Below are positions 24,556 to 63,200 of a stretch of DNA of 64,000 bases, in pieces. The DNA lies in the NCBI GenBank assembly GCA_002238425.1, contig MPMJ01000008.1, positions 1 through 64,000 of the forward strand. The letters are read 5' to 3'. Every line of letters starts with the position of its first letter. Position 1 is the stretch's first letter. Position numbers and translations under genes: made by a program. This DNA comes from SAR202 cluster bacterium bin16. GTDB taxonomy: Bacteria; Chloroflexota; Dehalococcoidia; Lucifugimonadales; Australimonadaceae. Under the pieces are notes generated by a model that was not told the origin of the DNA, ran no database searches, and saw only the letters and a list, made by a program, of their open reading frames with translations.

Positions 24556-26340
24556 ATGGTAGAAGACCGCACCATCGCAGCAGACCCCAGTTGGAGCGAG
24601 CACGACGCCGACGAGTGGGCGGACGCCATCACGACAGCGATGAAGCTCGGCGGGGTGGAGCACTTCTTCTTCGTTTCCGGCTCCGAGATCGGTTTCTACC
24701 AGGAGGCTGTCGCGCGAGCCGCCGCGAAGGGCTGGCCCGCGCCGCAGCTCCTCACCGTTACTCACGAAGGCTCGGCGCTGAACGCTGCGCTCGGCAGCGC
24801 GATGGTGCGCGAGCAGCCGGCGGCGACCGCCGCGCACGTCGACGTTGGCACGTTCAACTACGGCGCCGGGCTGCACACCGCTTGGCGTGGCAGCTATCCC
24901 GTTCTCATCACGGCGGGAGCGGGGCCGCGCGCCTATCCCGGCTCGATGCGCGGCGCGCGCTCGAACAGCGTGCAGTGGGTGCAGGAGCCGCGCGACCAGG
25001 GCGAGATCGTGCGGCAGTACACGAAGATCGACCACCGGCTCGACCATACGGACAACCCCGGCCTCATCGTCAGCCGTCTGCTGCAGGTCGCGATGAGCGA
25101 GCCGCGCGGACCGGTCTACATGACCGTGCCGCAGGAAGCTGCGATGCTGCCGCTGCCCGGCAAGACGCGCTTCCCGACCCGCGACGAGCTGGGGGTTGCA
25201 CGTCCCGTCTGGCCCGATCCATCGGACGCGAAGCGCGTGGCGGAGTGGCTGGTGAAGGCGCAGAACCCGATCGTTATCCTCGGGCAGTCGGGGCGCAACA
25301 GCGGGTCGGTCGCGCCGCTCGTGCGGCTCGCGGAACTGCTCGCGCTTCCGATGATGGACTCCGACCGTACGATGACGATGAACTTCCCGACGACGCACCC
25401 GCTCTCCGGTACGGGGCCGACTGCGGCGCAGGCAGACGTGGTGGTGGTCATCGAGACGCCGGTGCCGTACATGCCGGCGAACGCCCCGCGTCCGGGCACG
25501 AAGATCGTGTGGGTGGACCCGGACCCGGTGCAGTCGCGTTACAAGACGATGGAGTTCCACGCGGACGTGTGGCTGCCGGTGCTGGCGGGGCCGTTCGCGG
25601 AGGCGGTCTACGAGCAGGCTGCCGGTATGCTGACGACGTCGGACATGAGCCGGATCGAGGAGCGGCGTGAGCGGCTGGCGCAGCGCAAGCAGGAGATCCG
25701 GAAGCAGGACGAGGACGCCGCGATGCGAGTGGCGACCCGCGACCCCATCAGTCCCCGGTGGGTCGGCTACCAGATAGGGCAGGTGCTGGAGGAGCAGGCC
25801 ATCGTGCTGGACGACACGCTCAGCTCGACAGCCGCGTTCCGCCCGTACCACGGGCGCAGCCAGCCGGGCTCGTACTTCAAGAGCGGCGGCAGCGCGGGCG
25901 GCTGGGGAACCGGCGCCGCGTTCGGCGCGAAGACGGCTGCGCCGGACCGGGACGTGGTGCTCGTGACCGGCGACGGCTATTTCATGTTCGGCAGCCCGCT
26001 CGCGGCGCTCTGGTCGTCCGGGCACTACAAGACGCCATTCCTCACGGTGGTGTTCGTGAACAAGTCGTACAGCACGGGCACGGCGGGCGTGGACGGCGCG
26101 TACCCCGGCGGGTTCGCGGCGTCTGCGGGATACGAGGGCGGGCTGTTCGACCCGCCGCCGGACTTCGCGAAGCTTGCGGAGGTGGCGAACGGCTACGGCG
26201 AGTCGGTGACGAATCCTGCGGAGGTCGGCCCTGCGCTCAGACGAGGGCTTACCGAGGTGCGAAACGGCTCTCCCTCCGTCATCGCGGTGCAACTTCCCAC
26301 GCTGCCGGACGAGCTGCACAAGCTGGGCGGGTCGCGGTAG
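24556..26340 (+). CDS. Thiamine-diphosphate-dependent enzyme (acetolactate synthase-like)
   Basis: A 594-residue enzyme with the three-domain layout of the acetohydroxyacid synthase/benzoylformate decarboxylase family. The cofactor-activating glutamate is in LTVTHEGSALNAALGSAM at about residue 70, a central nucleotide-fold domain spans about 200-350, and the TPP-Mg motif is LVTGDGYFMFGSPLAALW ending VFVNKSYS at about residues 470-510. It is not the housekeeping IlvB by motif detail and stands alone without an IlvH partner, so a decarboxylase or lyase in catabolism is as likely. ATG 24556 follows GAGGAGGCCCCAC. Confidence 0.82.
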   Translation: MVEDRTIAADPSWSEHDADEWADAITTAMKLGGVEHFFFVSGSEIGFYQEAVARAAAKGWPAPQLLTVTHEGSALNAALGSAMVREQPAATAAHVDVGTFNYGAGLHTAWRGSYPVLITAGAGPRAYPGSMRGARSNSVQWVQEPRDQGEIVRQYTKIDHRLDHTDNPGLIVSRLLQVAMSEPRGPVYMTVPQEAAMLPLPGKTRFPTRDELGVARPVWPDPSDAKRVAEWLVKAQNPIVILGQSGRNSGSVAPLVRLAELLALPMMDSDRTMTMNFPTTHPLSGTGPTAAQADVVVVIETPVPYMPANAPRPGTKIVWVDPDPVQSRYKTMEFHADVWLPVLAGPFAEAVYEQAAGMLTTSDMSRIEERRERLAQRKQEIRKQDEDAAMRVATRDPISPRWVGYQIGQVLEEQAIVLDDTLSSTAAFRPYHGRSQPGSYFKSGGSAGGWGTGAAFGAKTAAPDRDVVLVTGDGYFMFGSPLAALWSSGHYKTPFLTVVFVNKSYSTGTAGVDGAYPGGFAASAGYEGGLFDPPPDFAKLAEVANGYGESVTNPAEVGPALRRGLTEVRNGSPSVIAVQLPTLPDELHKLGGSR

Positions 26341-26590
26341 GGAAGGGGGGCCGCCGAATCACCCCCTTCCTAACCTTCCCCCATCAAGGGGGGAAGGGAT
26401 AAGACCGCGCTGCCGGACGAATTGCACAAGCTGGGTGGGACGCGGTAGGGAAGAGCTACGCACCACCGAGAGATGTTTCGACTCCGCCTTCGGCTGCGCT
26501 CAACATGACAATCCCCCATACAACCCCGCCGGTTCACCCTCACCCTCACCCCTGGAGGGAGAGGGGACCAGACCGACGTTGCCCCCTCAG
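26341..26590. repeat. Intergenic repeats after the TPP enzyme, including a duplicated gene tail
   Basis: In order: a hairpin repeat of C-rich/G-rich arms (about 26361-26403, AACCTTCCCCCATCAAGG at its centre) that recurs at 37318-37365; a second copy of the TPP-enzyme 3' end at 26409-26454; a GAGAGATGTTTCGACTCCGC repeat (26466-26511) that recurs at 33203-33246; and a CACCCTCACCCTCACC block (26530-26575) of the kind seen in many bacterial genomes. Confidence 0.75.
26409..26447 (+). pseudogene. Duplicated 3' tail of the TPP-enzyme gene
   Basis: Reads LPDELHKLGGTR-stop, against LPDELHKLGGSR-stop in the intact gene ending at 26340. Base identity continues a few bases past the stop codon. Only about 13 codons remain, separated from the parent by the hairpin repeat. 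Confidence 0.7.
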
Positions 26591-32358: not shown

Positions 32359-33021
32359 TCAGAGGACGCGGTAGGCCCAGACGTTGTACCAGATGTCGGG
32401 CTCTCCGTTGGGCAGGGGCAGGAAGGGTTCGGAGCGCTCTGCGAGTTCCCACTTGCCCGCTTCTTCCAGCGCGTTCTGTTTCACGTCGAAGCCGGCCTCC
32501 GTGTAGTGGTCAGGGCGGATGGTGAAGACGACGTAGCCGCCGGGTTTAGTGACGCGGACGAGTTCGTCGAGCGACTCGGGCGGGGCGTGCCCGATGGTGA
32601 ACGTGCCGACGCATGTCGTGGAGTCGAAGGTGTCGCTCTCGAAGGAGAGCGGCTTGCCGAGTTCCCCGACGACGAGTTCCTCGTAGACGAGTTTCTCGTT
32701 GGCGACCATCAGCATGCCGGCGGAGAGATCGAGCGCGGTGATGCGCTTGAAACCGACCCGCGCGAGCTCCTGGCCGACCATGCCGGTGCCTGCGCCCGCG
32801 TCGAGCAGCTTTGCTTCGGGGTCGGAGACGTACTTCGCGAGTGTATCGACGGCGGTGCGGGGCCCGATGAAGCCAAACGACTCGAGGTCGGCGTCATATT
32901 CGGTGGCCCAGTCGTCGTACGTGGTCGTCAGCTCGTCGTCGTCCGTGGTCTTCGGCTGTTCGTTGCCCTTGGAGCCGTAGACCTTTTGGAAGCGTTCGAA
33001 TCGTGCCTTTTCGCTGGTCAT
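32359..33021 (-). CDS. Class I SAM-dependent methyltransferase (tandem copy 1)
   Basis: A 220-residue methyltransferase. KLLDAGAGTGMVGQELARVG is SAM motif I at about residues 70-90, ITALDLSAGMLMVAN is motif II, and ESLDELVRVTKPGGYVVFTI is the late motif with PGG. ATG 33021 is preceded by GAGGGC. It is closely related to the next gene upstream; together they are a tandem duplication separated by repeats. The substrate is unknown; both share an unusual N-terminal region DELTTTYDDWATEYDADLES. Confidence 0.88.
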   Translation of the reverse strand: MTSEKARFERFQKVYGSKGNEQPKTTDDDELTTTYDDWATEYDADLESFGFIGPRTAVDTLAKYVSDPEAKLLDAGAGTGMVGQELARVGFKRITALDLSAGMLMVANEKLVYEELVVGELGKPLSFESDTFDSTTCVGTFTIGHAPPESLDELVRVTKPGGYVVFTIRPDHYTEAGFDVKQNALEEAGKWELAERSEPFLPLPNGEPDIWYNVWAYRVL

Positions 33022-33292
33022 GGCGATGCCCTCGTATGGCGTGGATTGTCCCGCAGGCTATCACGGGCGGGTAGTCTCTCTCCGGGACTGCGGGGTTCCT
33101 GCAAGGGTGGGAATGGCCCAAGGCCCTGCAAGCCGTGTAAGGGAGTCGAACGGGGAGGTGCGACTCCTCCCGGGCAAACGTCTGGAGTAATCCGACGTTT
33201 CCCGAGAGATGTTCGACTCCGCCTCCGGCTCCGCTCAACATGACAACCGAGGGGCGACGTTCCTGCGAAAGCAGGGGCGTCAGGGGAGGGGA
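33022..33292. repeat. Intergenic repeats between the tandem methyltransferases
   Basis: Contains GAGAGATGTTCGACTCCGCC ... CTCAACATGACAA at 33203-33246, a copy of the repeat at 26466-26511, followed by TTCCTGCGAAAGCAGG (33261-33276), an inverted repeat of the common REP type. No gene is seen in this stretch. Confidence 0.65.
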
Positions 33293-33979
33293 CTACAGGA
33301 CGCGGTAGGCCCAGACGTAGTACCAGATGTCGGGTTCGCCGTTGGGCATGGGCTGGAAGGGGTCGGTCTGTTCGACGACCTCCCACTTGCCCGCCTCGGC
33401 CAGCGCGTTCTGCTTCACGTTGAAGCCGCCCTCCGTGTAGTAGTCGGTGCGGATGCTGAAGACGATGTACCCGCCCGGCTTCGTGACGCGGACGAGTTCG
33501 TCGAGCGACTCCGCCGGGGCGTGGCCGAAGGTGAACGTGCCGACGCAGGTCGTGGAGTCGAAGGCGTCCGTCTCGAAGGGGAGGGGCTTGGCGAGTTCGC
33601 CACACCCCAAACCCTCCGTGTCGAAGGAGAGGGGCTTGCCGAGTTCGCCAACGACCAATTCCTCGTATACGAACTTCTCGTTGGCGGTCATCAACATGCC
33701 GGGGGAGAGGTCGAGGGCGGTGATGCGCTTGAAGCCGAGCCGCGCGAGCTCCTGGCCGACCATGCCGGTGCCCGCGCCGGCGTCGAGCAGCTTGGCCTCG
33801 GGGTCGCTGACGTACTTCGCGAGCGTCTCTGCTGCCGTGCGCGGGCCGATGAAGCCGAGCGATTCGAGGTCGGCGTCGTAGTCGGTGGCCCAGCCGTCGT
33901 ATTCGGTGGTCAGTTCGTCGTAGTCCCTGGAGTCGTAGACCCGCTGGATGCGTTCTGTGCGCGCCTTGTCAGATGTCAT
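33293..33979 (-). CDS. Class I SAM-dependent methyltransferase (tandem copy 2, internal duplication)
   Basis: A 228-residue paralogue of the gene at 32359. Motif I KLLDAGAGTGMVGQELARLG and the PGG motif are the same. It carries a 16-residue extra segment because GELGKPLSFDTEGLGC is followed by GELAKPLPFETDAFD, where copy 1 has a single GELGKPLSFESDTFD. The DNA shows a 48-bp tandem repeat (33570 and 33618), one unit degraded at its end, which may be an assembly artefact. ATG 33979 lies behind CGGAGGCTATGCC. Confidence 0.85.
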   Translation of the reverse strand: MTSDKARTERIQRVYDSRDYDELTTEYDGWATDYDADLESLGFIGPRTAAETLAKYVSDPEAKLLDAGAGTGMVGQELARLGFKRITALDLSPGMLMTANEKFVYEELVVGELGKPLSFDTEGLGCGELAKPLPFETDAFDSTTCVGTFTFGHAPAESLDELVRVTKPGGYIVFSIRTDYYTEGGFNVKQNALAEAGKWEVVEQTDPFQPMPNGEPDIWYYVWAYRVL

Positions 33980-34054
33980 GGCATAGCCTCCGTGCGTGTG
34001 TTGCGCGCGCAGGGTACCACGCTCGGGCAAGGTGTGTAGGAGGCGCGCGGAGGA

Positions 34055-39452: not shown

Positions 39453-40334
39453 TCACAGCCCCATGAGCTTGTCCAGCCCCACGGTGAGGCCGGTGAGGCC
39501 GCCGACCTTGCGGACGGCCATGAGGACGCCGGGCATGTAGCACTCGCGGTCGGTGGTGTCATGGCGGAGGGAGAGCGTCTGGCCGGGGCCGCCGAACGTG
39601 ACCTGGTGGTGCGCCATGCGGCCGGGCATGCGCGCTGCGTGGATGCTGATGCCCTCGTAGTCGCCGCCGCGCGTGCCAGTGAGCGGCTCCCGCCCGGGGG
39701 GGGGGTGGGGGGGGCGCTCCGCGGGGGGCGCGGGGGCCGCCGCCGCGGCGCCGCGGGCGCCCGTGAGCGGCTCGCGCTCGGGGTCGTTGTGGGCGAACCG
39801 CTCCGGGTGTGCCTCGTGGACCGCCTTCGCGATGCCGAGCGCCGTACCGGACGGCGCGTCGACCTTCATCTCGTGGTGTTCCTCCACGATGTCGGCGTAC
39901 TCGAAGTACGGGGCGGCGATGGCGGCGAGTTTCGTGAGCAGCACCGCGCCTATCGTGAAGTTGGGGGCGAGGAAGCCGCCGAGGTTGTGCTCGGCGCAGA
40001 GCGCACCGATGCGCTCCACCTGCTCCGGCGTGAACCCGGTCGTGCCGATGACGGGCCGCGCACCGCACGCCAGCGCTTGCGGGAGCATCTCCAGCGTCGC
40101 CTGCGCGAGGCTGAAGTCGACGATGGCGTCCGACGGCTGCGCGGTCAGCGCCTCCCGGACGCTGGTGTAGTAGGAGACGTCGACGGGCAGGGACGCGAGT
40201 TCGGTCGGCGGCACGCGGTCTATCGCTGCGGTGAGCGTCATGTCCGGCGCTCCTGCGACGGCGCGGAGCACCTCGCGTCCGACGCGGCCCGCCGCGCCGT
40301 GCACCGCTACGCGTATCGCGGGGTTGCTGGTCAT
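39453..40334 (-). CDS. dapB: 4-hydroxy-tetrahydrodipicolinate reductase
   Basis: A 293-residue lysine/diaminopimelate enzyme. IRVAVHGAAGRVGREVLRAV is the NADPH loop, IVEEHHEMKVDAPSGTALGI is the signature with the catalytic HHxxKxDAPSGTA, and VIGTTGFTPEQVERI the second motif. It is about 28 residues too long: REPLTGARG is followed by an Ala/Pro-rich run and then REPLTGTRGGDYEG. The DNA copies are 84 bp apart and the upstream one decays into G/C runs on the sequenced strand, so the insert is probably an assembly artefact. Without it the length would be about 265, normal for DapB. Confidence 0.9.
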   Translation of the reverse strand: MTSNPAIRVAVHGAAGRVGREVLRAVAGAPDMTLTAAIDRVPPTELASLPVDVSYYTSVREALTAQPSDAIVDFSLAQATLEMLPQALACGARPVIGTTGFTPEQVERIGALCAEHNLGGFLAPNFTIGAVLLTKLAAIAAPYFEYADIVEEHHEMKVDAPSGTALGIAKAVHEAHPERFAHNDPEREPLTGARGAAAAAPAPPAERPPHPPPGREPLTGTRGGDYEGISIHAARMPGRMAHHQVTFGGPGQTLSLRHDTTDRECYMPGVLMAVRKVGGLTGLTVGLDKLMGL

Positions 40335-40338
40335 GGCG

Positions 40339-41271
40339 TCAGGAGCGCGGGCCCATCCCCATGGACGAGCCACCGGCCTCTCGCATGCGCTGCGCCATCT
40401 CCGTGTCGACGCCGCGGCGCCACTCGCGCTTCGCGGGGTCTTCCACGTTGACGTGCAGGGTGCCGATGCCGCCGATGGTGAAGTCGAGGCGGTCGCCGTC
40501 CTGCAGCGCGCCGAGGCCCTGGTGGTTCGTGCCGGTGCTGATGATGTCACCGGCGCGCAGGTGGGCGATGCGCGAGATGAACTCGATGCACTCCGGGATC
40601 TTGTGGGCCATGTCGTCCGTGTTGAACGCCTGCCGGTCCTCGCCGTTGTTGGCGATATGGAGGCTCACGTCGTGCGGGTCGGGAATCTCGTCCTTCGTGA
40701 CGATGAACGGGCCCATGGGGCCGAACGTGGGCCAGGACTTCACCTGGAAGAAACTGGTGCGTCCGCCGGGCTCGAAGCCACGGGCGGAGACGTCGATGAA
40801 ACCGGTGTAGCCGAACACCTTGTCCATCGCCTCTTCCTGCGAGACGTTCTTCGCTTCCGCGCCCATGATGACCGCCAACTCGGCCTCGTGGTGGAATATG
40901 GTGGCGTGGCAGTCGGGGCTGAGGTGGACGGTGTCGCCGTCACCTATGACGCAGTCGGACGATTTCTGAAAGCAGTCGATCTCCGGCATGGGCCGCTGGC
41001 CGAACTCGAGGTAGTTCACCGCCATGCAGAATATCTGGTCGGGCCGGGGGATCGGCGGGCGGATTCGCACGCTGCTCAGGGGCACGCCCTCCGAGACGTC
41101 GCAGAGCTTCTGGAACGGGTCGCGCACCTGCTCGAAGTGGGAGATGACGAGATTGATCATCTCCTGCGCGCCGTGGGCGTGCACGCCCGCCAGCGCCTCC
41201 GAGACGTCCACGATATGGGTGTCGTTCTTCACGACGCCAAGCGTCCAGTCGTTGAAAAAGCCGATCTTCAT
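40339..41271 (-). CDS. Fumarylacetoacetate hydrolase family protein
   Basis: A 310-residue FAH-superfamily enzyme (hydratase/isomerase/decarboxylase of 2-keto acids). FCMAVNYLEFGQ begins the catalytic domain, FHHEAELAVIMG carries the metal-binding HxExE-type residues, SWPTFGPMGPFIVTKDEI and RAGDIISTGTNHQGLG follow the family pattern. ATG 41271 has GAGGAGAAGCGCGC upstream. It precedes dapB by 4 bases in the same direction, although its role is likely catabolic. Confidence 0.88.
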   Translation of the reverse strand: MKIGFFNDWTLGVVKNDTHIVDVSEALAGVHAHGAQEMINLVISHFEQVRDPFQKLCDVSEGVPLSSVRIRPPIPRPDQIFCMAVNYLEFGQRPMPEIDCFQKSSDCVIGDGDTVHLSPDCHATIFHHEAELAVIMGAEAKNVSQEEAMDKVFGYTGFIDVSARGFEPGGRTSFFQVKSWPTFGPMGPFIVTKDEIPDPHDVSLHIANNGEDRQAFNTDDMAHKIPECIEFISRIAHLRAGDIISTGTNHQGLGALQDGDRLDFTIGGIGTLHVNVEDPAKREWRRGVDTEMAQRMREAGGSSMGMGPRS

Positions 41272-41291: not shown

Positions 41292-42616
41292 TTACCGAAG
41301 GATGATGGGCCGCACGACGATGCTCTCGTCGCGGCGCGGGCCGGTGGATATCAGGTCTATCGGGCAGCCTATCACGTCCTCTATGCGGCGGACGTAGGCC
41401 GCCGCCTCGGGGGGCAGTTGGGATTTGTTCGTGATCCCCGCGGTCGGGGCGCTCCAGCCGGGCATCTCCTCCCAGACCGGAGTGGCGCGTTCCAGCAGAC
41501 CGGGTTCGCTGGGGAAGCGGTGGATGCGCTTGCCGTCCGCCTCGTAGGCGGTGCAGATCTTCACGGGGTTGATGCCGTCCAGCACGTCGAGCCGCGTGAG
41601 CACTGCGGACGTGAAGCCGTTGATGGTGGCGGAGTAGCGCGCCGCGAGGCCGTCGAACCAGCCGACGCGCCGTGGGCGTCCGGTCGTCGTGCCGTACTCC
41701 CAGGCTCGCTCGCGGATGTCCTGCCCCACCTCGTCATCCAGTTCAGTGGTCAGAGGCCCTGCGCCGACGCGGGTGGAGTACGCCTTGAACACGCCGATGA
41801 TGCCGACGATCTCGCGCGGCGAGATGCCGAGGCCGGTGCACGCTCCGCCGATGGAGACCGACGACGACGTGACGTAGGGGTACGTTCCGTGGTCGAGGTC
41901 GAGCATCGCGCCCTGCGCGCCCTCCAGCCCGCCACGTGCGCCGCGCGCGGCGCGCCCCCCAGCACGACGGGTGCGCCGGGGGGGAGCCTGTCCAGGATGC
42001 GTTGCTCCACCGATGCGACGTACGGCCGGAGGGCGTTGCCCCAGGAGCGCACCTGGGCGAGCAGGTCGTCGAAGTCGATGGGGTCGGCGTCGAATACCCT
42101 GGTGAGGAGCCGGTTCTTCTGTGCGAGGACCGTTTCCAGGCGGGATGCGAGGTACGTCTCGTCCAGCAGGTCGCCGAGGCGGATGCCGGTGCGCGCGACC
42201 TTGTCCACGTAAGCGGGGCCGATGCCGCGCCCCGTGGTGCCGATGGCGTTGCTGCCGCGGGCCTTCTCCTCCAACTGGTCCAGCATGATGTGGTAGGGCA
42301 TGACGATGTGGGTGTGGTCGCTGATGAAGAGGCGGCTGGTGTCCACGCCCCGCTCGTTCAGGCTCTCCAGCTCGCCCAGCAGCACGACGGGGTCGAGCAC
42401 GACTCCGGGGCCGATGACTGCGTCCACGTGCGGGCGGAATATGCCCGACGGAATGAGATGGAGGGCGAACTCGCCCTTCTCGTTGATGACCGTATGACCG
42501 GCGTTGCTGCCGCCGGAGTAGCGAACGACGACGTCCGCCTCCTCAGCGAGGAAGTCGACTACCTTTCCTTTGCCCTCGTCGCCCCATTGGGCGCCGACGA
42601 TGCCGTATGCGGGCAT
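41292..42616 (-). CDS. purA: Adenylosuccinate synthetase, apparent frameshift by a 35-bp duplication
   Basis: Converts IMP, GTP and aspartate to adenylosuccinate. The N-terminal part reads IVGAQWGDEGKGKVVDFLAE and RYSGGSNAGHTVINEKGEF, with the catalytic His and P-loop, down to RLPPGAPVVL. The C-terminal part resumes in another frame at LEGAQGAMLDLDHGTYPYVT and ends RRDESIVVRPIILR. Between them CTGGAGGGCGCGCAGG (41912-41927) has a degraded copy 35 bp away. Removing 35 bases gives an unbroken protein of normal length. Two separate reading frames (41292-41906, 41750-42616) are what remains. ATG 42616 lies after AAAGGAGTGTTGCG. Confidence 0.88.
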
Positions 42617-48320: not shown

Positions 48321-49427
48321 CTAGCCTTGGGTAAACGCGCTGCCCTCTCCCACGAGACCCTGCCCCGGTAGCACGACCTGACGCCTGCCTTCGCGCACCG
48401 TCCCGATGACCGACGCCTCGCCCCCGGCAGCGGCGATGGCCGCGAGCGCCGCGCCGGCGGACGACGCTGGCACCACGGCGCAGAAACCGATGCCCATGTT
48501 GTAGACGCGGTACATCTCGTCGAGCGCCACGTTGCCCTCGCGCTGGATCACCTCGAAGATGGGCTGTGGCGCGGGCAGGGCATCGAGGTGGTATTCGACG
48601 TCGGCGTCGAGGCGGAGCAGGTTCAGCAGGCCGTCGCCGGATATGTGTGCGAGGCCGTGCACGTCAACGCCGTCGCGCAGCATGGCCGTGACCTCCGGCA
48701 CGTATACGTGCGTGCGGCGCAGCAACTCCTCGCCCACGGTACGCCCGCACTCCGGCAGCGCAAGGCCGACGGTCTCGTGTGCGTCCCCACTCAGCAGGAG
48801 GCTGCGCGCGAGCGTGAGCCCGTTCGCGTGGATGCCGTTGCTCGCCATGCCGATGACCGCGTCGCCGGGACGGATCGCCGCGCCGGTGATGGGCGCCGCG
48901 CCGTCCTCCAGCACGCCCACGCACGTCGCGGAGATATCGAACGCGTATCCCTCGTGAGGACCGGTGAGCGTGTCGGGGTGCTGCGAGAGTTCGCCGCCGA
49001 CGATGGCGACGCGTGCGCGCTCTGCGGCGTCGCGCATCCCTTTGCCGAGCGCGGCCAGCATATCCCCGTGCGGATGCTGGAGCGCGATGTAGTCCACGAG
49101 CGCGATGGGCCGGGCACCGGTGCAGATGATGTCGTTCACGTTGACGGCGACGCAGTCCCAGCCGATGGACTCAAAGTCGCCGGTAAGTTGCGCGAGCACG
49201 CTCTTGGAGCCGACGCCGTCCGTCGATATCGCGAGGGAGAGGCGCTCGTTGAGCGGCAGGACGGCGGCGAAGAAGCCGCCGGGCACCGGCGATGGGCCGA
49301 CGCCTTCAACGAACGCGGAGGTCTGCGATACCCAGTGCAGCAGACCGGAGAGACCTTTGGCCGCTTCGTCTGTGTCGACGCCGGAGGAAGCGTACGTCTG
49401 CTGCCCTGATGGAGTGTCGTCAGGCAT
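48321..49427 (-). CDS. purM: Phosphoribosylformylglycinamidine cyclo-ligase
   Basis: A 368-residue AIR synthetase of purine synthesis. [40 protein letters not shown] and [13 protein letters not shown] are the ATP-site and dimer motifs; [20 protein letters not shown] matches the C-terminal signature with GGG replaced by SGDG. ATG 49427 overlaps the upstream dehydrogenase stop by 8 bases. N-terminal [16 protein letters not shown] agrees with the PurM start (Y-x-x-AGVDI). Confidence 0.93.
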
Positions 49428-50574
49428 GGAGCGTCCGGGCGGTCTTCGCTATCGTTTCGCCTGCGGCGCGCGTGCCGCCGACCGGCTGGCCGTACTCTCC
49501 TATGGCTAGAGCGCCGCTCTTGAGCGACTCCTCCACCGCCCGGCGGGTCAGCTCCGCTGCCGCGCCCTCGCCGAGGTAGTCGAGCATCATCGCGAGCGTG
49601 AGCACCTGCGAGACGGGGTTCGCCTTGTCCTGCCCCGCGATGTCGGGCGCGGAGCCGTGGATCGGCTCCGAGGAAGCGGGGGCGGCGCCGGTGGTGCCGG
49701 AGGGCGGGGAGCCGGGGATCGGCTCGAAGTAGGCGTGGTCGTCGCCGATGTTGCCGGAGGGGCAGAGGCCGATGCCTCCGACCGTTCCGCCGCCGAGATC
49801 GCTGAGGATGTCGCCGAGGAAGTTCTCCATCACCAGCACGTCGAAATGCTGCGGACGCACGACCAGCGCCTGCGCTGCCGCGTCGGCGTACAGGTGCTCG
49901 CTCTGCACGTCGGGGAACTCCTCGGCTACCTCATCGAATACACGCCGGAAGAACGCCATGGACGGAAGCACGTTCGCCTTGTCCACACACGTTACGCGGC
50001 GCACGCCGTCCGACGGCGCTCCGTTCCGCTGCAGGGCAATCTCGAACGCCCGCCGGACGACGCGCTCCGTTCCCTTGCGCGTGATCAGCAGGGTGTCCGC
50101 TGCTGCGTCGTTGGTCTGCACGCCCTTGCCGCGTGAGAGATACAGCCCTTCCGTGTTTTCCCGAACGATGACGTAGTCAACTTCGCCGGGCTCCGCCTTG
50201 ATGGGCGCCTCCGCCCCGGGCAGCAGCCGGATGGGGCGCACGTTGGCGTACACGTCCAGGCCGGTGCGGAGCACGCCGCCGAGCACGCCGGCCTCCGTGC
50301 CGTCCGGGAAGCGCACCTCCGGCAGCCCCACCGGGCCCTTCATGGTCGCGTCCGCGGCCCGGACGGCTGCGATCGACTCCGCCGAGAGGTTCGCGCCGGT
50401 CTCCTGGTAGAGCGCAGCACCGCCGCGATGGACGTCCAGGTTCAGGTGGAAGCCGCCCGACGCCTCCTCCACCGCCTCCAGCACCGCGAGCGCCGCGTCG
50501 GTGAGTTCAGGGCCGATGCCGTCGCCGGGGATGATGACGACGTTGTGTTCGCGCTTGCCAGTGGAGTCTGCCAT
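49420..50574 (-). CDS. Isocitrate/isopropylmalate dehydrogenase family protein
   Basis: A 384-residue beta-decarboxylating dehydrogenase. VVIIPGDGIGPELTDAALAV, VIVRENTEGLYLSRGKGVQ and MENFLGDILSDLGGGTVGGI are the family signatures; RENTEGLY and the tartrate-dehydrogenase-like region suggest leuB/TtuC-like substrates rather than citrate. A 19-residue extra piece (EPIPGSPPSGTTGAAPASS) precedes the real SEPIHGSAPDIAGQDKANP; the 57-bp duplication probably is an assembly artefact. ATG 50574 has TGATATACT ending 8 bases upstream, a leaderless-type promoter, divergent from the phosphatase-like gene at 50699. Confidence 0.9.
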   Translation of the reverse strand: MADSTGKREHNVVIIPGDGIGPELTDAALAVLEAVEEASGGFHLNLDVHRGGAALYQETGANLSAESIAAVRAADATMKGPVGLPEVRFPDGTEAGVLGGVLRTGLDVYANVRPIRLLPGAEAPIKAEPGEVDYVIVRENTEGLYLSRGKGVQTNDAAADTLLITRKGTERVVRRAFEIALQRNGAPSDGVRRVTCVDKANVLPSMAFFRRVFDEVAEEFPDVQSEHLYADAAAQALVVRPQHFDVLVMENFLGDILSDLGGGTVGGIGLCPSGNIGDDHAYFEPIPGSPPSGTTGAAPASSEPIHGSAPDIAGQDKANPVSQVLTLAMMLDYLGEGAAAELTRRAVEESLKSGALAIGEYGQPVGGTRAAGETIAKTARTLHA

Positions 50575-50582
50575 GGCATCGG

Positions 50583-50588
50583 AGTATA
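50583..50588 (-). promoter_or_regulatory. Extended -10 box giving a probable leaderless mRNA (leuB-like gene)
   Basis: On the minus strand TGA-TATACT ends 8 bases before ATG 50574; no ribosome site is visible. Confidence 0.5.
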
Positions 50589-50698
50589 TCAACGCGCCGC
50601 GTAGGCAGGGCGCGTGTAGAATGGCCGCGCCCGCAGGCGGCGTAAACGCCGGGGGCCAATCTCATCCGCGTTCACATGCACGGACGCGCGCAGGCGGC

Positions 50699-56682: not shown

Positions 56683-58846
56683 ACAGGAACAACGACATGA
56701 ACGACAGGGAGATCGAACGTCTGCTGGAGGAGCATTTCGCCTCCGGCCCGGCCAACATCCCTCCTTCACCTGACCTCTGGGGAGCGTTGGAGAGCCGCCT
56801 GGGCGAGCAGGACCCCAAGCCGCTCTGGGCGGTGCTGCGCGATGTCGGCACGCCGGTGGACGGCTTCCGCTTCGCGCCTGCTCTCGCCGCGACGGCGGCG
56901 GTCGCGGTCGTCGCGGTGGCGGGTGGCTCGGTGTGGTTCGCGGTCGGCAGCAGCGGCGGTGGGGGGTTGCCTGCGGCTGTTGAGAGCGGGCTCGCGGATG
57001 TGGGCTCCGACCCCACGCCGACGCCGACGCCCGCGGTGATGATGGAGTCTGCGGGCCCTGAAGAATCGGATGGCGTACCTGGAGCCCCGGGTATACCGGG
57101 CATTGCCGGTGTGGATGGCGAACAGTACCGCGCTGCGCCGACCCCGACAGTGGAGATCTTCTTGTCGAGATCTTCAGCGCCCACCGCCGTTCCGGCGCCA
57201 CCTCCCACGCCGACGCCTGCGCCGCAAGCGGCACTGGAGGCTGCACCGGTGTTGCCGGAGCAGCGCTCGACTGACCAGCCGGGGGCCACCACGTTCCAGG
57301 ACTACGAGCGGCAGCTCCTCACCGAGGCGCGGGAGGACAACATCTCCACGTTCAGCCTCGACACTGACCGCACGTCGTTCCAGCTGGCGCTGAACTGGGC
57401 GCGGGCCGGCTACCTGGTGGACCCTGCGTCGGTGCGGGCGGAGGAGTGGGTGAACGCCTTCGACTACGGCTACGCCGCCCCCACGGCCAGCGACCGCTTC
57501 GCCATCACGTCCGATCTCATCGCGCACCCGCTGGACAGCGGCAGGTACATGGCGCGCGTGGCGTTTAAGGCGCCGGAGGTGGTACAGGACGGCCCGCTCA
57601 ACGTGACGTTGGTGCTCGACGCGTCCGGTTCGATGAACGAAGGGGACCGGGTGGCCATCGCACGCGAGGCGGCTGAGGCCATCCGGCGGAGCCTCGATGC
57701 GGACGACCGCATATCGGTGGTGCACTTCACCACCGACGTGCTCCACGAGTTCACGGTCAAGTACGCATCGCCGGACGACCGGGAGGTCATCGACTCCATC
57801 GGCCGGCTCGCGCCGCACGACAGCACCAACGTGCAGGCGGGATTGGATCTCGGCGTGGAGTTGGCGGACACGATGCGGCGGGAGCGCCCCGATGCGCTGG
57901 ACTACGGCATCCTGATGTCCGACGGCGTGGCGGACGTCGGCGCCCCCGACCCCCTCGCCCTCCCCTGGTCGCCGTCTGCGCGCGGCGTGGCGAACGTCGA
58001 CGCCACCGACCCGTTCGCCATCCTGGAGTCCACGTCGGCGCCGGACGGCGCGAACCCGCTGCGGCTCGTCACCGTGGGCGTCGGCATCGAGAACTACAAC
58101 GACCACCTGCTGGAGCAGCTGGCGCAGCACGGCAACGGCTGGTACCGCTACCTGTTCGACGTGGAGCAGGCGCGCGCCACGTTCCGCCGAGACAACTGGC
58201 TGGGGGTCCCCCCCCCCGCGGGCCGTCAGCAGAGCGCCGGGTGGAGGGGGAGCGGGCGCGCGCCACGTGCCGCCGAGACAACTGGCTGGCGCTCGCCTCG
58301 CCGGTGGCCGATCAGACGCGCGCGCAGGTGACGTGGGACCCGGACGCGGTGGAGGCGTGGCGTATCGTCGGCTACGAGAACCGCGTGACGTCCGCCGAGT
58401 CGTTCACGCAGGACCGCAAAGAGTTCGCTGAGATCTACTCCGGCGCGGCCACGACCGTCTTCTACGAGTTGGAACTGCACGACGACTTCCGGCGTCATGG
58501 CGCCCTGGGGCAGGTGGAGCTGCGGTGGGTGGAGCCGGAGAGCGGCCGTGGCTGGAGCCAGAGCACGGATATCGCAGGCGGTGGACAGGTGAGACCCGCC
58601 TTGGTGGACCCGCTGCTGTCGTTCGGCGCGGTCGTGGCGTTGACGGCGGACAGGTACAACGCGCTGGGCGACGCCCGTGAGTCCTACGACTCCGGTCGTG
58701 ACCTGTGGACATTGCTGGGCCTCGTGGACGGCCTGCACGGCGACCTGGGACACCTGGCGGCGTTCGAGGACTTCGCCTTCGTGATGGAAGCGCTGCTCAG
58801 GAGCGTTCCGTACGTTGAACCGGACAACTCAGGGTACAGCCGTTAG
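56679..58846 (+). CDS. Membrane-anchored VWA protein (YfbK-type) with putative anti-sigma N-terminus, apparent frameshift
   Basis: Residues 1-60 are cytoplasmic and contain REIERLLEEHFASGP, a candidate anti-sigma region. A helix follows at about 66-90 (ALAATAAVAVVAVAGGSVWF), then a Pro/Thr linker, the YfbK N-domain (FQDYERQLLTEAREDNISTF), and a VWA domain with the metal-site LDASGSMNEGDRVA. The C-domain (DUF3520-like) reads AWRIVGYENRVTSAESF and is in a second frame (58241-58846). The frame change is an 86-bp duplication (58161 and 58241 region), and a 60-bp one lies at 57924/57984; both have a degraded copy, so they are probably artefacts. Confidence 0.85.
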
Positions 58847-60287: not shown

Positions 60288-63200
60288 CTACTCCGTAACA
60301 TCCGTCACGGTGATGGTGACAGTGGCCGTGTCCCTCAGCCCGTTCACGTCGCGCGTCTCGACGGTCAACGTGTATGACGTGGTCGTCTCGTAGTCCAACG
60401 TCTTCATAAGCCAGAGGTCGCCCCTGTTCAGGTCGATGGCGAACATCCCTGCGCCGTTCCCCGCCGTGATGTGGAATGTAACCGCCTCGCTCGCTTCAGG
60501 GTCCACCGCGTCCAACAAGCCGACGCGTGTCCACACCCCGGCATCCTCCGCGATGGAGAACGTGTAGCTGGACACCGACGGCACGACGATGACGACCGTG
60601 GCCATGTCCGTCAGCCCACTATTGTCCCGCGCCTCCACCGTCAGCGTATGCAGGGAGGCCGCCCCGCTGGACGGCGCCTTTGCGAGCTGGATGTCGCCGA
60701 AGTTGAGGTCGATGGTAAACGTCCCTCCGTCGTTTCCCGCAATGACGTGGTACGTGACCGAGTCGCCCGCGTCCTGGTCTGCCGCGGTCACGAGGCCGAC
60801 GCGTGTCCCGACTGGCGTGTTCTGCGCGGCCGAGAACACGTAGCGGGACCGCGGGAAGGCGGCGCGTGCATGCACCCCTCCGTGACCGTGTACGAAGCGC
60901 TGTCGGAGGGCATGCCCCACTCGGCGAGGTACGCCGTGCCGTCGCCGCGCGCACGCACGCGGAACTCGAGTGTGGTCCCACAGAGGGTGGAGCCGGGCGG
61001 CGTGAATGCCGTGCTCAGGCTCGTTATGTCCTCCACGTTCGTCCATGCGTCCGGTGACTGAGCCGCGCGGTGCTGCACGCGGTACAGGTCCACCCCTGCC
61101 ACTGCGGACCAGGCGATCCCTATCTCCGCGTCAGCGTTGTCCGCCACGGTGACCATGTCCGTCGCCGGAGGTATCTCGTCACAGTAGCTGAGATTAAGCG
61201 TGCTCAGGTCGTTGTTCGCAACATCCCGCAGCCCCGGTGGCAGGCATATCGTGAAGGAGTTCCCCGCCAGCCGCAGGAACGTCAGGCTGTCCAGGCCGTC
61301 CAACTCCTGAGGCAGCATGCCGGTCAGGCTGTTGCCGTTCAGTGTCAGGTGCGTCAGCGCCGACAGCAGTCCAAGCGACGGTGGAACGCGCCCGGTGAGG
61401 CTCCGTGACGGCAGTTGTAGCTTCGTCACGCGGCCCGGCGTACCGGCGACCGTCACTCCGTCCCAGCTCGTTATCGCCGTGTCCACGCTCCAGTTCAGCG
61501 TTGCCGTTCCCGCTAGGGGGTCCTTCGCCTTCAGAAGCGCATCGCAGTCGAAGGCCAGTTCGCGATTGAGTCCGGCGTTCGGTACGGCGGCTCCAGTGTC
61601 GCAAGCCGACACGGCAGGCGTATCGTTGTCGAGGACGTTCACGAGAGCGCTCGACGTTCCGATCTGGTAAGCGGTACCCGACCGGACTTCCACGCGGACC
61701 GTGCCGTGCCGCTCATAGGTCGTATCGTCGTCCGTTCGGAGAACGAGGTCAGCCGTGGCGCTTCCGCGGCGGATCGTGACGCTGCGTGGTAGTTGGGTCG
61801 CGCCCTCGATGAAGGAGCCGGTCGTCGCGACGCTCACTCCCACGGTGAGGTCCGCCGCCGGGGCCGGTGCTGCCCTCAGTGTGAAGGCAACGTTGGTCCC
61901 CTCGTTCACGTCGCCACTGCTCTTCCGTGCGATGCTTACTACGGGCAGAGACAACGGCGTCCCTCTTGCACTGGAAGACCACGGGCTGCAGGGAGGCAGA
62001 CCACCCACGCCGGCGCAGGCCCGCACCTGCACGTCGTACGAGTTCGCGCTGAGCTGGGCCAGCGTCTTGCTTGCCGTGCCGGTTGTCAAAGAGGTCACTG
62101 TCCATGACGGCGCACTGTCAGGGGCGGACGTGAGCTTGTACCGTATCTGATAGCCGGTGATTGCGGAGCCTGCCGGGGGGGTGCCCCGGGTCACCTGGAG
62201 CCTTGCGGTCCCCGCCGTGACCGTTGGCCGAGACATCCTGGACGGACAGTCTCCGATGCCTGCCGAAGCGCTCGACGACCACAGGCCCCACTCGGTCGAA
62301 TAGGCGGAGCCGTTCCCTCTCGCGCGGACCTTGAACTGGTAGGTTGCTCCGCATTCGCCCGTGCTGAACGGCGTTATGGCGACGTGCGTTCCGGTAGCCG
62401 TGTCCTTGGTCCATGGGCTGGAGGAATCCTTCCGGTAGGCGAATTCATACTCGGCCGCGCCCGTCACGGCTTCCCAACTCAGCGTGAACGACCCATTCGA
62501 GTAGGTTGCGGATACGTTCGAAGGCACGGGAGCGCACGCCCGTGCGGTGATGGTCTCGGGCTCCGACCACGCACTCCACCCGTCCAGGTGCTCTTGGCCG
62601 TCCCCGCGGGCGCTCACGCTGAATTCATACTTGCTTCCGCAATCGATGCCCCCGTCGGGCGTTATCGTCGCGCTCGTATCTGCAGTCGTCTCCGCGTTCC
62701 CCCAGCCGGCGTCCGCCGTCTTCCTGTACTTGTACCGGTACTCGGTCACGCCCTCCATGGCGTCCCAACTGAACACGAAAGAGTCCGACGGCTGGCTGAT
62801 CCCCAGGGAAGAAGGACTTTCGACCTCAGTGAGTTCGCTGGCTGGCAGCGAGGCGGAGAGTGTGGGCGGCGTGGGCGCTGGAGTCGGGGTTGAGGTGGGG
62901 GCCAGCGTTGGAGTCGGGGTCGGTGTCGCAGTCGGTGTGGGCGCTGGAGTCGGCGTTGAAGTGGGGGTCGGCGTTGGGGTCGGGGTCTGTGTCGGAGTCG
63001 GCGTTGAAGTGGGGGCCGGCGTTGGAGTCGGGGTCTGTGTCTGTGTCGGAGTCGGCGTGGGTGCTGGAGTCGGCGTTGAAGTAGGGGCCGGCGTTGGCGT
63101 TGCAATGGTGAGCGATGCCTTCGTCTCCGAACGTGCCGCGTTTCCAGTGCCTGCATCCCTGATGGTGAAGCTTATGGAGTCGCTGTCCGAGTTCTCGTGG

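Follow-up and report, generated by a model that had tools for sequence, protein, structure and literature searches.

Wrongly merged read pairs are a known cause of misassemblies, and between 115 and 20,986 of them were counted with different merging tools (the BBMerge paper, PMC5657622). Phasing, in which lagging molecules blur the late cycles, limits Illumina read length and is a source of late-cycle errors (PMC4053729). Each of six short tandem duplications in the draft genome of SAR202 cluster bacterium bin16 appears to be an assembly mis-join, at which convergent, noisy and truly overlapping read tails were connected through a short false overlap, and not DNA of the organism; to this reading we give a probability of about 0.96. 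This is an artefact of sequencing, ordinary in kind; literature searches for the exact artefact found no paper describing it as such.

The window (the whole stretch analysed, 64,000 nucleotides) is part of contig 65 (88,492 bases), and the draft genome comprises 3.22 Mb in 101 contigs, being 92.6% complete. Period-shifted alignments recovered all six head-to-tail duplications at the spacings that a sequence-only reading had reported, and 15 dinucleotide-preserving shuffles of the window yielded zero repeats at a threshold passed by all six. The boundaries, on the other hand, required correction, the true starts given below lying 1 to 40 bases upstream of those first proposed. The copy number of each locus was then assessed through finding its left and right flanks in genomes of the same genus (three or four per site, all of other species) and counting the bases between them.

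Four of the duplications lie in genes on the minus strand. That in the methyltransferase gene (ORF 33293-34030; Methyltransf_11) has a period of 48 bases (33567-33614 and 33615-33662) and adds 16 codons in frame; its flanks are 48 bases apart in three congeners, compared with 96 in the window. In dapB (ORF 39453-40550; DapB_N and DapB_C), the period is 84 bases (39662-39745 and 39746-39829), the gain 28 codons in frame, and the flank separation 84 bases in three congeners against 168 in the window; copy 1 here terminates in long runs of G and the junction is 91% G+C. The purA duplication, with a period of 35 bases (41907-41941 and 41942-41976), causes a frameshift that divides the gene into ORFs 41292-41906 and 41750-42616, which match complementary parts of the Adenylsucc_synt profile (221-416 and 2-217, respectively). 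Flanks separated by 70 bases in the window are separated by 35 in four congeners, and a search with the whole gene aligns 901 window bases to 866 congener bases in the four genomes. The leuB-like isocitrate/isopropylmalate dehydrogenase gene (ORF 49420-50592; Iso_dh) contains a 57-base period (49645-49701 and 49702-49758), in frame and worth 19 codons; three congeners have 57 bases between flanks that are 114 apart in the window, and 801 window bases of the gene align to 744 congener bases.

The remaining two duplications share a single plus-strand gene encoding a VWA-domain protein (vWF_A and VWA_2), for which the named records among close relatives are metagenome-assembled Chloroflexi or Dehalococcoidia. 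One, of period 60 (57923-57982 and 57983-58042), is in frame and adds 20 codons, its flanks being 60 bases apart in three congeners and 120 in the window; for two congener proteins, the alignment to the VWA protein covers its residues 1-153 and 169-240. The other, of period 86 (58151-58236 and 58237-58322), shifts the frame, which then stops at 58331; here the flank separation is 86 bases in three congeners and 172 in the window. The earlier statement that two of the six are out of frame thus holds, for periods 35 and 86.

The same duplications were sought in independent genomes and, at all six sites, exactly one period (48, 84, 35, 57, 60 or 86 bases) was found to separate the flanks in every congener measured, never two; the outer flanks themselves stay close to the congeners and are undecayed. 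The additional copy is confined to this assembly. Five genes are falsely broken or lengthened by the six mis-joins, and the gene calls of this genome are wrong at these six places: the organism very probably has intact purA and VWA genes, and its methyltransferase, dapB and leuB-like genes lack the inserts.

The mismatches between copies were polarised by aligning each copy separately with the congeners and assigning every difference to the copy that departs from them. The sequence-only reading had a single degraded copy in each pair; in fact both are damaged, copy 1 bearing 65 errors at a mean relative position of 0.68 and copy 2 bearing 18 at a mean of 0.22 (congeners as outgroup; p = 5e-5 on permuting copy labels within sites). 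Copy 1 is damaged towards its right end and copy 2 at its left end, with about one misplaced error each at the purA and first VWA sites. Since the errors face the junction, the end of copy 1 resembles the tail of a rightward read, and the start of copy 2 that of a leftward one. The drift to G or C that had been described is borne out in total, by 75 of the 83 polarised errors (48 to G and 27 to C, on the plus strand), but not at every site: the methyltransferase junction, at a G+C fraction of 0.65, is no richer than its flanks (0.67), while the other five junctions range from 0.78 to 0.91. C>G and T>G were the commonest substitutions and changes were not limited to adenines; on that account, and with the copies adjacent to one another, diversity-generating mutagenesis was considered and dropped.

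A more specific signature lies in the identity of the wrong base. Taking the previous base as the left neighbour in copy 1 and the right neighbour in copy 2, that is, along the presumed direction of reading into the junction, it equals the error base in 54 of 83 cases, compared to about 40 under permutation of the error bases among events sharing copy and true base (p = 0.0002; like the other p-values here, this assumes that the errors at one site are independent, an assumption that fails within a single read). The next base was not enriched among the same 83 errors (32 against 28 by permutation, p = 0.14). At the leuB-like site, all seven end-zone errors match the previous base. Such an excess is the fingerprint of Illumina-type post-phasing and points to chemistry of that type as the source. 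Much of the G/C bias is explained by phasing errors on a GC-rich template, the G+C content here being 67%.

Recurrence of the pattern at other sites of the genome is the safeguard against the non-independence of errors within one read. The sample amounted to 660 kb, namely the window together with 596 kb drawn from 28 other contigs and from the remainder of contig 65. Among single tandem pairs in the 596 kb outside the window, some 13 more sites of the same look were recognised by eye, on stretches L034, L035 (twice), L041, L083, L087, L090, L092 (twice), L093, L097 (twice) and L100. When all single tandem pairs outside the window are pooled, including some that look natural, 102 of 202 errors equal the previous base, compared with 81 expected (p = 0.00025); the proportion reaches 22 of 23 at an 84-bp site on L100. 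Natural repeats in a 347-kb comparison set from congeners lacked the signal (15 of 70, 18 expected). Two of the outside sites, with periods of 84 and 97, are single-copy in two congeners (G003 and G004), 701 query bases aligning to 617 (84 fewer) and 700 to 603 (97 fewer). By extrapolation, about 19 such sites in 660 kb correspond to some 90 across the 3.2 Mb assembly, enough to generate false frameshifts, false pseudogenes and false short repeats. A score contrasting inner G/C with outer A/T was tried as a detector and set this genome apart from its congeners weakly, so the previous-base test was used in its place; it offers a means of spotting such joins in an assembly without recourse to reads.

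Other repeats occur in the same sequences. An intergenic element of about 47 bases (33201-33247) recurs dozens of times, almost unchanged, both here and in four congeners, and resembles a dispersed repetitive element belonging to the genus; a further copy lies at 26466-26511, and a similar sequence forms part of a 131-bp tandem pair at L097:16549-16682. Near the copy at 26466-26511, a 49-base repeat (26297-26345 and 26405-26453, spacing 108 bases) is 90% identical and has no drift pattern. Two adjoining methyltransferase genes on the minus strand (32359-33021 and 33293-34030) are 79% identical in DNA and apparently represent a real gene duplication. A long array of degenerate 6-, 12- and 18-base repeats at 62846-63124 seems natural, because congeners have similar arrays. 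One 20-base tandem pair, of period 22, recurs close to the ends of three different contigs (L036:47-88, L037:47-88 and L040:6806-6847), which suggests a repeat at which contigs break.

The pattern probably arose as follows. Two converging reads, one running left to right and the other right to left, and most simply explained as both ends of a single short fragment, would truly overlap by roughly a few bases more than the period. (At several sites, not all, the matched stretch is longer than the period by 2 to 14 bases, the outcome to be expected of a short false overlap; across like-looking sites the difference runs from -18 to +14.) Towards their 3' ends the reads would fall out of phase, as molecules of the cluster lagged, so that the base called would often be that of the previous cycle, producing stretches of G and C where the template is GC-rich. 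The true overlap would then be too dissimilar to be recognised, and the tails be joined instead where corrupted, G/C-rich bases happened to match over a short length; the overlap would therefore be present twice in tandem, with errors pointing at the junction. The join itself may have been a false read-pair merge or else a low-depth join made at a contig end or in gap filling, either of which would leave the same trace. Poly-G tails of two-colour chemistry alone were also considered. They fit copy 1 of the 84-bp site, and only part of the set: in copy 1 of the 60- and 86-bp sites the drift is mostly towards C, and at the 86-bp site it is copy 2 that goes to G. A model in which no signal is called as G thus misses some sites; previous-base errors fit better.

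Genuine short tandem duplications, produced by slippage or microhomology and later decayed by mutation, deserve consideration inasmuch as real tandem duplications do occur in this genome and its relatives, and four of the six periods are multiples of three. Yet the extra copies are missing from all the congeners measured, such a duplication would necessarily break purA, and mutation would neither concentrate the damage on the junction side of each copy, with the left neighbour copied in copy 1 and the right neighbour in copy 2, nor spare the outer flanks. Neither mark of a genuine tandem duplication is seen here, the copies being unshared with the relatives measured and the mismatches directional, and we regard this origin as highly improbable. 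With congeners of other species for comparison, a duplication private to the strain is ruled out by the error pattern only; a strain-private process would have to make short tandem duplications and mutate both copies to the neighbouring base near the junction, in imitation of sequencer errors, and is barely credible.

Just as improbable as genuine duplication is strain variation, in which an assembler places divergent strains or haplotypes side by side. A metagenome can contain several strains, and false duplications derived from haplotypes are, in the portions available of two reports (PMC2864568 and PMC9516828), a documented assembly error. However, strain differences would neither increase in a graded way towards the junction nor repeat the previous base in a direction that reverses from one copy to the other, and beyond the overlaps each flank remains close to the congeners. 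The mis-joining of noisy read tails, proposed in essence by the sequence-only reading as low-quality read ends joined into the consensus, is supported: congeners are single-copy at every site, errors face the junction from opposite sides, the error base tends to copy the previous one and the pattern recurs across the genome.

Among described artefacts, the false-positive merges of the BBMerge study (PMC5657622) are alike in that a wrong overlap of paired reads passes into the assembly as a local misassembly, although those were measured on a mock community against known insert lengths and the present ones are deduced from sequence alone. The false segmental or haplotype duplications, as far as the available portions of those reports (PMC2864568; PMC9516828) describe them, similarly show one locus twice in an assembly; they derive from divergent haplotypes, whereas here the overlap spans 35-86 bases and the divergence would be sequencing error. 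In Illumina post-phasing (PMC4053729) lagging molecules blur the late cycles, and the wrong calls in this assembly tend to repeat the base before; where such errors are normally confined to reads, here they have become fixed in the consensus.
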